The position numbers and the translations under genes were made by a program. This document shows, in pieces, positions 10,129-13,538 of a stretch of DNA of 64,000 nucleotides. The first letter of the stretch is position 1, and each line of letters begins with the position of its first letter. This DNA comes from Peptococcaceae bacterium BICA1-7 (GTDB taxonomy: Bacteria; Bacillota; Desulfotomaculia; Desulfotomaculales; Desulfocucumaceae): positions 186,001 to 250,000 of the forward strand of contig JUEB01000029.1 in the NCBI GenBank assembly GCA_000802095.1, in the 5' to 3' direction. The notes under the pieces were generated by a model. It was not told where the DNA came from, made no database searches, and saw nothing but the letters and a program-made list of their open reading frames with translations.

Positions 10129-10485
10129 TTGGCAGTTGATCCTCGGGTGCTGGCCGACCTGGCCATAAAGGTTGCTGAAGACAAAAAGGCCTATGATATC
10201 AAGATTTTAGACATCCGGAAGATTTCGGTAATAGCAGACTTTTTTATAATCTGCACCGGCCGTTCATCAACAAATGTCCAGGCAATTGCCGGGGAAATAG
10301 TGGATAAGGTTAAGGAAAAGTACAACTTGAGCCCCCGCAAGGAGGGGATCCGGGAGGGACGCTGGATATTGCTTGACTACGGGGACGTGGTGATACATGT
10401 TTTTGTAGAGGAGGAGCGCCAGTTTTACAATCTGGAGCGGCTGTGGGGAGATGCTGATGAGGTGGGCATGTTTGCCAACCTGTAG
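10129..10485 (+). CDS. rsfS: Ribosomal silencing factor RsfS
   Basis: RsfS binds ribosomal protein L14 and blocks joining of the subunits when nutrients are short. The 118-residue protein has the family core: KKAYDIKILDI, ADFFIICTGRSSTNVQAIA, EGIREGRWILLDYGDVVIHV and FYNLERLWGDA. The start is TTG: AAGGAGG is 8 nt upstream, and the nearby ATG at 10125 is out of frame and meets a stop after four codons. A TATAAT at 10089-10094 could be a promoter -10 but has no good -35. The gene is followed by the leuS T-box leader, the usual rsfS-leuS order. Confidence 0.93.
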   Translation: MAVDPRVLADLAIKVAEDKKAYDIKILDIRKISVIADFFIICTGRSSTNVQAIAGEIVDKVKEKYNLSPRKEGIREGRWILLDYGDVVIHVFVEEERQFYNLERLWGDADEVGMFANL

Positions 10486-10518: not shown

Positions 10519-10547
10519 TTGACACCTTTACGGCAATATCTTATAAT
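10519..10547 (+). promoter_or_regulatory. Sigma-A promoter of the leuS leader
   Basis: TTGACA at 10519-10524 and TATAAT at 10542-10547 are separated by exactly 17 bp, both perfect consensus boxes. Transcription would start near 10554, just before the first T-box helix. Confidence 0.88.
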
Positions 10548-10552
10548 AATCT

Positions 10553-10882
10553 ACGTCAGTCTTATAGAGTAACGACTTTGAAGGGGAGCAGTAAGCGGCC
10601 CGGGCTTTTTAAGAGAGCCGCCGGTGGGTGTAAGGCGGTAGGCGAAAGCTGCAGAAACTCGCCCCGGAGTTTACCGGGCGAAGGTCAAGTAACCCGGTAC
10701 GGTTAGCGCCGTTATACGTTTTAAGAGGGTAAGGCACATGGGGCTGTGGCGCAGAGGGAGCGCGCTTCCTTGGCATGGAAGAGGCCGCGGGTTCGATTCC
10801 CGCCAGCTCCACCAATTTTCCTTTACCAATCAGGGTGGTATCGCGGGCAGTAACCCGTCCCTTCAGGGGACGGGTTTTTTCG
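10553..10882 (+). promoter_or_regulatory. T-box leader (tRNA-Leu sensing) of leuS, interrupted by a tRNA gene
   Basis: T-box leaders bind uncharged tRNA and then favour an antiterminator. Visible parts are stem I with the lower helix GGGG/CCCC, the specifier loop (AGTAA on the 5' side, AGAAACTCG on the 3' side), the AGAGA and GGTG elements at about 10610-10630, a stem II/pseudoknot-like region (GGTTAGCGCCGTTA) at about 10700, a stem III base GGTAAGG/CCTTTACC, the T-box AGGGTGGTATCGCGG at 10832-10846, and the terminator AACCCGTCCC/GGGACGGGTT with TTTTTT ending at 10880. CTC at 10658-10660, followed by a purine, is the likely specifier and fits leucine and the downstream leuS. A tRNA-Ala gene occupies the loop of stem III. 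Confidence 0.87.
10740..10814 (+). tRNA. tRNA-Ala (anticodon GGC) with encoded CCA, inside the leuS T-box leader
   Basis: A full cloverleaf is present. The acceptor stem is GGGGCTG (10740-10746) with CAGCTCC (10804-10810). The D stem is GCGC/GCGC with a short 7-nt loop, the anticodon stem CTTCC/GGAAG with loop TTGGCAT (GGC at 10772-10774), and the T stem GCGGG/CCCGC with loop TTCGATT. Discriminator A is at 10811 and CCA at 10812-10814. The G3:U70 pair, the main alanine identity element, is present. The gene has no promoter of its own that I can see; it would be made as part of the leuS leader from the promoter at 10519 and cut out by RNase P and 3' processing. Confidence 0.93.
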
Positions 10883-10888
10883 TATATA

Positions 10889-11036
10889 AGGAATGGGGAC
10901 ACACCGAAAGCGGAAAGGGGACACACCTGCTGAATGGCTTTGGGGGTCGGAGGAATGTCCCCGATCGGGGTGGCTTTTGTCCTCCCCCCAATCCCTAATC
11001 CCTAATCCCCAATCCCCAATCCCCAATTCCCAATTT
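10889..11036 (+). repeat. GGGGACA-type dispersed repeat, copy 3, between the T-box terminator and leuS
   Basis: It has the same block order as 9750-9898: GGAATGGGGACACACC, GGGGACACACC, GGTCGGAGGAATGTCCCC, GATCGGGGTGGCTTTTGTCC, then a run of CAATCCC/CTAATCC words. It separates the T-box terminator from the leuS ribosome-binding site by about 150 bp and would be part of the leuS mRNA 5' end. Confidence 0.8.
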
Positions 11037-11054
11037 AGGAGGAAATAGCTGGCC

Positions 11055-13538
11055 ATGAAAGAGCGTTACGAGTTTGCGGAAATTGAGGAGAAATGGCAGA
11101 AGAAGTGGGCCGCGGAGGATATATACCGTGTTCCTGACAGCGGTGGCCGCCCCAAATATTACTGCCTGGAGATGTTTCCCTATCCTTCGGGCAAGCTGCA
11201 CATGGGACATGTGCGAAACTACTCCATTGGTGACGTGCTGGCCCGCTTCCTGACCATGCGAGGGTACAGCGTGCTTCATCCCATGGGCTGGGATGCCTTC
11301 GGGCTGCCGGCTGAAAACGCGGCCATCAAGCACGGCAACATACATCCAGCGGTGTGGACCTATGAAAACATAAGCGCCATGAGAGCCCAGCTGAAGCAAC
11401 TGGGCCTGAGCTATGACTGGAACAGGGAGATAGCCACCTGCCACCCGGGCTATTACCGCTGGACCCAGTGGCTTTTCCTACAGCTGTATAAACACGGCCT
11501 GGCCTACAAAAAGGAGGCGGCGGTGAACTGGTGTCCTTCCTGCGCCACAGTTTTGGCCAACGAGCAGGTCAAGGAGGGGTCCTGTGAGCGCTGCAGCGCC
11601 ACCGTGGAGAAAAGAGAGCTGAACCAGTGGTTTTTTAAGATCACCAAGTACGCCGACAGGCTTTTAGATGACCTAAAGCTGCTGGAGGGCTGGCCGGAAA
11701 AGGTCAGGATAATGCAGGAAAACTGGATAGGCCGCAGTGAGGGAGCCGAAATTAACTTTCCGGTGGATGGCTCGGATGATGTAATGACTGTTTTTACCAC
11801 CAGGCCGGATACTATTTTCGGGGTCACCTACATGATCCTGGCCCCCGAGCACCCTCTGGTGGAAAAGCTCATCCAGGGAAGGCCCGAGGCTCCAGAAATA
11901 AGGGATTTTGTGAATAAGGTCAGAAGCTTAAGCGAGCTGGACAGGACCTCCACCGAGAGCGAAAAAATAGGTCTTTTTACCGGGGCGCACTGTGTAAACC
12001 CATTAAACGGCGAGAGGGTGCCCATACTGGTGGCCAACTATGTGCTGCTGGAGTACGGCACCGGCTGTGTTATGGGGGTCCCCGCCCATGACCAGAGGGA
12101 CTTTGAATTTGCGCGGAAATACAATCTGCCCATAAAGATTGTCATACAGCCCGAAGGGGAGGCACTGGACCCGGATACTATGAAAGAGGCCTATTCCGGA
12201 GAGGGCCTGATGGTCAATTCCGGTAAGTTTAACGGGCTGGCCAAAAAAGAGGGTATCAGGTCGGTAATAGAATACTGCGAGGAAAAGGGAATAGGCAAGG
12301 GTGTAATCAATTTCAGGCTCAGGGACTGGCTCATATCCCGCCAGCGCTACTGGGGCGCCCCCATTCCCATGATATACTGCGATAAGTGCGGCATTGTCCC
12401 GGTGCCGGAGTCCCAGCTGCCGGTGGAGCTGCCCATGGATGTAGAGTTCAAGAATACCGGCCGCAACCCGCTGGCCGACCATCCGTCCTTTGTCAGCGCC
12501 ACCTGCCCGCAGTGTGGCGGCCCCGGGCGCAGGGAGACCGACACCATGGACACCTTTATGTGCTCCTCCTTCTATTATTACAGATATACAAGCCCCCGGG
12601 ACGGGGATCATGTCTGGGATGATGAAAAGGTCAGGCACTGGCTTCCGGTGGACCAGTACATCGGCGGGGTTGAGCACGCCATACTGCACCTTTTATATTC
12701 AAGATTCTTTACCAAATTTCTTAATGATATAGGGCTGGTTCCCAACGTAGAGCCCTTTACCAGGCTTTTGACCCAGGGCATGGTCTTAAAGGACGGTTCC
12801 AAAATGTCCAAATCAAAGGGCAATGTGGTCAGCCCCGAAGATATAGTGGCCACCTACGGAGCCGACACGGCCAGGATGTTCATACTGTTTGCCGCACCCC
12901 CGGAGAGAGACCTGGAGTGGAGCGACCAGGGTGTGGAGGGCTGCTCCCGGTTCCTCAACAGGGTGTGGAGGCTGGTGGCCCCGCTGGCGGGCATACTGGA
13001 GTCCGGCAGCTCCCCGGATACCGGCAAGCTGGTGGGAGTGGACAGGGAAATGCACCGCCTTACCCACGGCGCCATAAAAAAGGTAACCGAGGATATTGGA
13101 GGCAGGTTCAACTTTAACACCGCCGTCAGCGCCATAATGGAGATGGTCAACGGTCTCTACCAGTACCGGGAGGTGCCTGAGACCGACCGGGACCCGGCTG
13201 TTCTCAGTGAGGCGGTGGAAGCGCTGCTGATTCTTTTAGCTCCCTTCGCGCCGCATGTCACCGAGGAGCTGTGGCAGGGAATGGGCAGGAGCGGCAGTGT
13301 GCACCTTCAGCCCTGGCCTGAATACAGCCAGGAGGCAGTCTCTGAGGAAGAGGTCACCATAGTGGTCCAGCTAAACGGCAAGATCAAGGAAAGGATGCTG
13401 GTACCCGCCGATATAACCCCGGAGGGGATGAAAGAGCTGGTGCTCTCCCGGCCAAGTGTGCGGGAGATGCTGGAGGGTAAAAATGTGGTCAAGGTCATCC
13501 CGGTGCCGGGCAAGCTGGTGAATATAGTGGTAAAATAA
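11055..13538 (+). CDS. leuS: Leucyl-tRNA synthetase
   Basis: LeuS charges tRNA-Leu. The 827-residue protein is full length for bacterial LeuRS. The class I HIGH motif is in [16 protein letters not shown] near residue 45. The CP1 editing domain begins near [13 protein letters not shown] with the second editing block [21 protein letters not shown] zinc-binding-type insertion shows [13 protein letters not shown] and CERC, and the KMSKS loop is [10 protein letters not shown] near residue 582. AGGAGG at 11037-11042 sits 12 nt before the ATG. Expression should be controlled by the upstream T-box responding to uncharged tRNA-Leu. A strong terminator follows. Confidence 0.97.

Follow-up and report, generated by a model that had tools for sequence, protein, structure and literature searches.

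T-boxes are a textbook example of RNAs that recognise tRNA in trans, and the leuS leader examined here raises the question of how such a switch would work when a tRNA gene lies within its own fold. A sequence-only reading of the window, i.e. the whole 64,000-nt stretch of contig JUEB01000029.1 analysed, had proposed that a single RNA would act both as a sensor of tRNA-Leu charging and as the precursor of tRNA-Ala. Our analysis supports this proposal, based on a single promoter, the co-conservation of the parts and the usually unique Ala(GGC) copy they contain. The locus is very probably a leucine-specific, transcription-attenuating leuS T-box in which the cell's tRNA-Ala(GGC) gene stands where stem III would have its apical loop. 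On the best reading, tRNA-Leu charging would decide only whether leuS is read, and every leader transcript would yield tRNA-Ala.

Rfam models RF00230 and RF00005 and ARAGORN agree on a T-box leader around a complete tRNA-Ala(GGC) (Table 1). Using cmscan, RF00230 was fully covered (model positions 1-219) at 10569-10865, with a score of 133.3 bits against a gathering threshold of 93 (E 2e-29). The sole large insertion in this alignment, ~75 nt long, falls in the stem III loop, exactly where the tRNA model matches (10740-10811, 68.2 bits). This tRNA, the only one detected in the 64,000-nt window with ARAGORN, carries both the G3:U70 pair and the encoded CCA previously read from the sequence, and the coordinates first assigned to the stem III strands, linkers, T-box and specifier were all correct. 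Linkers of 5 nt join the tRNA to each stem III strand, and the AA and then the T-box AGGGUGG follow.

Table 1 Features of the nested leuS leader and its surroundings in the window.
Feature	Position	Strand	Remarks
rsfS	10129-10485		5' neighbour of leader promoter
Leader promoter TTGACA-17-TATAAT	10519..10547	+	12/12 consensus
T-box leader, Rfam RF00230	10569..10865	+	133.3 bits, whole model
Specifier CTC (Leu) within GAAACTCGCC	10658..10660	+	
RRRxG purine string AAGAG, 5' of stem III	10723..10727	+	
Stem III 5' strand GGTAAGG (RNA GGUAAGG)	10728..10734	+	
tRNA-Ala(GGC), CCA encoded, G3:U70	10740..10814	+	ARAGORN; anticodon 10772-10774
Stem III 3' strand CCTTTACC (RNA CCUUUACC)	10820..10827	+	
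Conserved AA after stem III 3' strand	10828-10829	+	
T-box AGGGTGGTATCGCGG, bears antiterminator UGGU bulge	10832..10846	+	
Intrinsic terminator of T-box	10852..10876	+	11 pairs + T run
leuS, leucyl-tRNA synthetase, regulated gene	11055..13538	+	ORF; Pfam PF13603, PF00133, PF08264

The leader displays the hallmarks of a T-box, namely the order RRRxG-stem III-AA, a UGGN T-box and a specifier matching the downstream leuS, and tRNA-Leu(GAG), the partner of the CTC specifier, is encoded elsewhere in the same genome (L171). The consensus promoter and the terminator attributed to the leader were both recovered, the former matching 12/12 consensus positions at 10519-10547 and the latter at 10852-10876, where it shares bases with the antiterminator's 3' half. 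The terminator also appears in the minimum-energy fold of the whole leader; these folds were no better than those of shuffled sequences and lacked the expected structure, uninformative folds being frequent with long GC-rich switches. Between the terminator and leuS lies a dispersed intergenic repeat (10884-11044), for which the genome has 61 matches, full or partial, and which includes a 7-bp CCCCAAT tandem (10986-11034). Two other loci of the source genome (L008 and L014; G000 C16:31629-32024 and C24:169370-169768) carry two consecutive T-box antiterminators and are predicted to be tandem or partly tandem T-boxes.

Stem III belongs to the discriminator that senses aminoacylation, and both its stem and its loop vary (PMC7583486, PMC7778990), the former paper being also the source of the RRRxG motif. 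A small hairpin occupies the stem III site in other T-boxes of the source genome and in the tRNA-less leuS T-boxes of Tepidanaerobacter, Acididesulfobacillus and Caloramator, hence the tRNA replaces the stem III loop. In 82/93 leaders, a helix of at least 4 bp without interruption ends exactly at the AA before the T-box, and RRRxG precedes it in 73 of those 82. The basal helix occurs in 32 different forms with compensatory exchanges. Strands from the same leader paired at -9.1 kcal/mol vs. -6.67 (sd 0.20) when swapped between leaders, the best of 5000 permutations (-7.40 kcal/mol) being weaker than the true pairing, although nested loci share ancestry and such statistics across loci overstate independence. 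Judged from these leader sequences, stem III is real and its strands covary. Around a tenth of leaders had no standard helix or specifier detectable with simple motifs. In leaders L198-L210 (families f39 and f94), the specifier lies only ~41-48 nt before the tRNA, and stem II appears to be missing. Between tRNA and stem III 3' strand, the Halonatronum locus (L105, 2212-2325) carries a further ~100-nt insert that contains inverted repeats.

The nested arrangement extends well beyond the source genome. In a comparison with relatives, cmscan placed a T-box around the tRNA in 17 of them, and the 330-bp leader aligns across the tRNA within the same genus, within the same family and in other families of the order. 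We also searched 398 genomes drawn evenly across the phylum Bacillota for the 3' half of a tRNA with GGGTGGNA no more than 36 nt behind it, a pattern blind to tRNA identity. This pattern matched 92/398 genomes (reversed control pattern: 3 matches), which exceeds chance, and locus inspection left real nests in ~81/398, about one fifth. This number is a lower bound, since the pattern is exact and missed Halonatronum (L105), yet a T-box surrounds the tRNA there. All inspected loci together span 63 genera and 30 family labels, two of the latter being NCBI names that belong to named loci. Carriers include the isolates Desulfofundulus thermosubterraneus DSM 16057 (L080), Thermosyntropha lipolytica DSM 11003 (L086) and Halonatronum saccharophilum DSM 13868 (L105), as well as single-contig genomes (G074, G080, G106, G128).

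Every real match inspected contains a tRNA-Ala(GGC) with CCA, and no other tRNA identity or T-box class was found in a nest among these loci. Most of the 93 distinct leaders retain the CUC specifier within GAA(A)CUC, and leuS is the next gene in nearly all nested loci. In families f3, f7, f8 and f16, an AMP-binding acyl-CoA synthetase comes first, with leuS visible behind it in the loci that extend far enough, and this synthetase is apparently under the leucine T-box. The intervening gene was observed at L080 (656-2320), L053-L060, L067, L069, L072, L214 and L215. Pattern matches at tRNA-Ser, tRNA-Leu and tRNA-Arg genes (L190, L222, L223) were discarded as chance, L223 having no T-box model match. 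The same holds for 120 stretches of viral contigs, where none of those checked had a full T-box motif behind the tRNA.

A genome-wide tRNA search confirmed that the nested gene is the only Ala(GGC) copy among the 49 tRNAs found in the source genome. Ala(CGC) is encoded elsewhere, and Ala(UGC) is absent among these 49, perhaps lost with unassembled rRNA operons. In a set of 66 genomes screened with an Ala(GGC) pattern, nest carriers have one Ala(GGC) copy, the nested one, with the exception of G013, which has two. The nested gene is probably essential and, being also usually single-copy, would be hard to lose.

Transcription signals are consistent with a single unit. A promoter with at least 10/12 consensus positions precedes stem I in 75/78 nested leaders, and the separate tRNA promoter and terminator that would have spoken against a common transcript were not found, either directly before the tRNA in 78 nested loci (promoter) or between tRNA and T-box in the window (terminator). 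Conversely, in T-box-less loci with a tRNA-Ala copy upstream of leuS, the tRNA is directly preceded by such a promoter. We infer that leader and tRNA are co-transcribed in vivo. The strength of the promoter was dropped as proof of tRNA demand, because near-consensus promoters also precede other T-boxes of the source genome.

Under the preferred reading, the single promoter would produce a single leader RNA that folds into stem I with its CUC specifier, stem II, a stem III topped by the tRNA cloverleaf, and then either antiterminator or terminator. Uncharged tRNA-Leu(GAG), bound in trans at stem I and the T-box bulge, would stabilise the antiterminator so that leuS is read, and charged tRNA-Leu would let the terminator form; the switch is expected to still respond to tRNA-Leu. 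RNase P and 3' nucleases would release tRNA-Ala from the leader RNA. Since the tRNA precedes the terminator, tRNA-Ala would be contained in terminated and read-through RNA alike, and its supply would therefore be set by the leader promoter rather than by the leucine switch. Both halves, T-box and tRNA, look functional, the sole Ala(GGC) copy and the conserved U(-1) being indirect signs of a tRNA that would be processed and aminoacylated in the cell. It is plausible that RNase P cuts the sensor from the antiterminator, and stem III could hold the leader halves together after this cut; the order of processing is one that we infer. The T-box leaders of thrS and thrZ in B. subtilis undergo cleavage 5' of the terminator (PMC3997798), so breaking the leader once the switch has decided would not necessarily impair leuS expression.

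The bases preceding the tRNA raise the possibility that excision itself is regulatory. U(-1) is found in 87/93 loci, and in 31/32 groups vs. 60/130 other tRNAs from seven of the genomes, while position -2 is a purine in 92/93 loci and positions -3 to -6 are variable. In 22/32 groups the majority form is G(-2)U(-1), vs. 18/130 other tRNAs. The P values (4e-8 and 2e-9) overstate the evidence, as the groups share ancestry. U(-1), often together with G(-2), could pair with A73/C74, and in E. coli two such leader-RCCA pairs slow RNase P, for which A(-2)U(-1) is optimal (PMC9433436). RNase P could then separate sensor from actuator at a slow site that delays the cut until the termination decision, the later cut setting the 5' end and stability of the leuS mRNA, and the thrS/thrZ precedent would fit such a scheme. 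We nevertheless consider this quite unlikely. The window locus and its family have the optimal A(-2)U(-1), common ancestry may account for the G(-2)U(-1) enrichment, and T-box and tRNA have been lost separately. The -2/-1 bases may represent a brake letting the switch decide first, a shield of the tRNA end from the UGGU bulge, or simple inheritance. The broader proposition, in which the sensor of one tRNA is the precursor of another and RNase P excision is a timed switch step that couples tRNA maturation and synthetase control across much of Bacillota, is one we regard as doubtful.

Other readings give the embedded tRNA, or the T-box, a different part. The tRNA end could pair in cis with UGGU, as the sequence-only reading had allowed, and control the antiterminator, making leuS alanine-tRNA-responsive or constitutive; the complementary ACCA lies ~20 nt before the bulge. 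This suggestion found no support: the ACCA runs on into the 3' trailer and is not a free end, and a single additional 3' nucleotide is enough for a tRNA to serve as a charged-tRNA mimic (PMC7583486). Covariation is uninformative here, as UGGU also fits A73 of tRNA-Leu, but the leucine specifier is conserved although cis pairing would make it needless, and we deem cis control extremely improbable. A dead T-box relic around a live tRNA gene would be in line with the several lineages in which the T-box was lost and the tRNA retained, yet distant families retain the specifier, RRRxG, the covarying stem III, the T-box and the terminator, which makes this very unlikely. The chance of an assembly or binning artefact is practically negligible, being refuted by the isolates, the single-contig genomes and the 30 family labels. 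The leucine-responsive switch that also yields tRNA-Ala hence remains our favoured reading.

On a LeuRS tree, the nested state requires 11 changes among 101 rows and ranges from Halanaerobiales to Syntrophomonadaceae and Desulfotomaculum relatives. That tRNA identity, gene and place of insertion are each the same throughout points towards a single ancient origin of the T-box/tRNA association with several losses, with horizontal spread possible. The tRNA is still upstream of leuS in 13/14 T-box-less loci, so that loss of the sensor is separable from retention of the tRNA. In family f16 (L060, L067, L069, L072, L213), the tRNA body itself has been exchanged in place, another Ala(GGC) sequence now standing in a leader that stayed similar. 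Compared with four family members, L060 has 81-86% identity in the leader but only 75-78% in the tRNA, and its tRNA shares 97% identity with the tRNA-Ala of the window.

Each half of this locus belongs to a known family, and their combination appears both unusual and widely conserved. The leader shares with leuS-class T-boxes (RF00230, CUC) stem I, stem II, the RRRxG-stem III-AA order, T-box, antiterminator/terminator and a downstream synthetase gene, but an ordinary RF00230 T-box has a few bases in the stem III loop where a complete, normally single-copy tRNA gene is found here. Co-transcription of tRNA genes with a protein gene is known from the E. coli tRNA-tufB operon, in which tRNAs are likewise cut from a messenger-type transcript, except that there they lie beside a regulatory fold and here inside one. 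Stem III also tolerates insertions in many translational T-boxes, as does helix A2, although PMC7583486 mentions no tRNA gene among these in the passages searched, and the leaders described here are transcriptional T-boxes. The thrS/thrZ leaders of B. subtilis are cut between sensor and terminator as expected here, but by RNase J/Y (PMC3997798), whereas RNase P would act at the tRNA. No description of a tRNA nested in a T-box was found in open-access full texts, nor is one mentioned in the searched passages of the 2020 T-box review and the TBDB paper (PMC7583486, PMC7778990). The initial impression that no such case had been described is thus consistent with the open-access literature.

Annotation that keeps only one of two overlapping RNA features hides such nests. 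Across 30 family labels, a usually single-copy, probably essential tRNA gene resides inside the aminoacylation-sensing part of a T-box, which raises the questions of how one RNA can serve both RNase P and the switch, how a discriminator operates when stem III carries a 75-nt tRNA, and why the pair is always Ala(GGC) and leuS.
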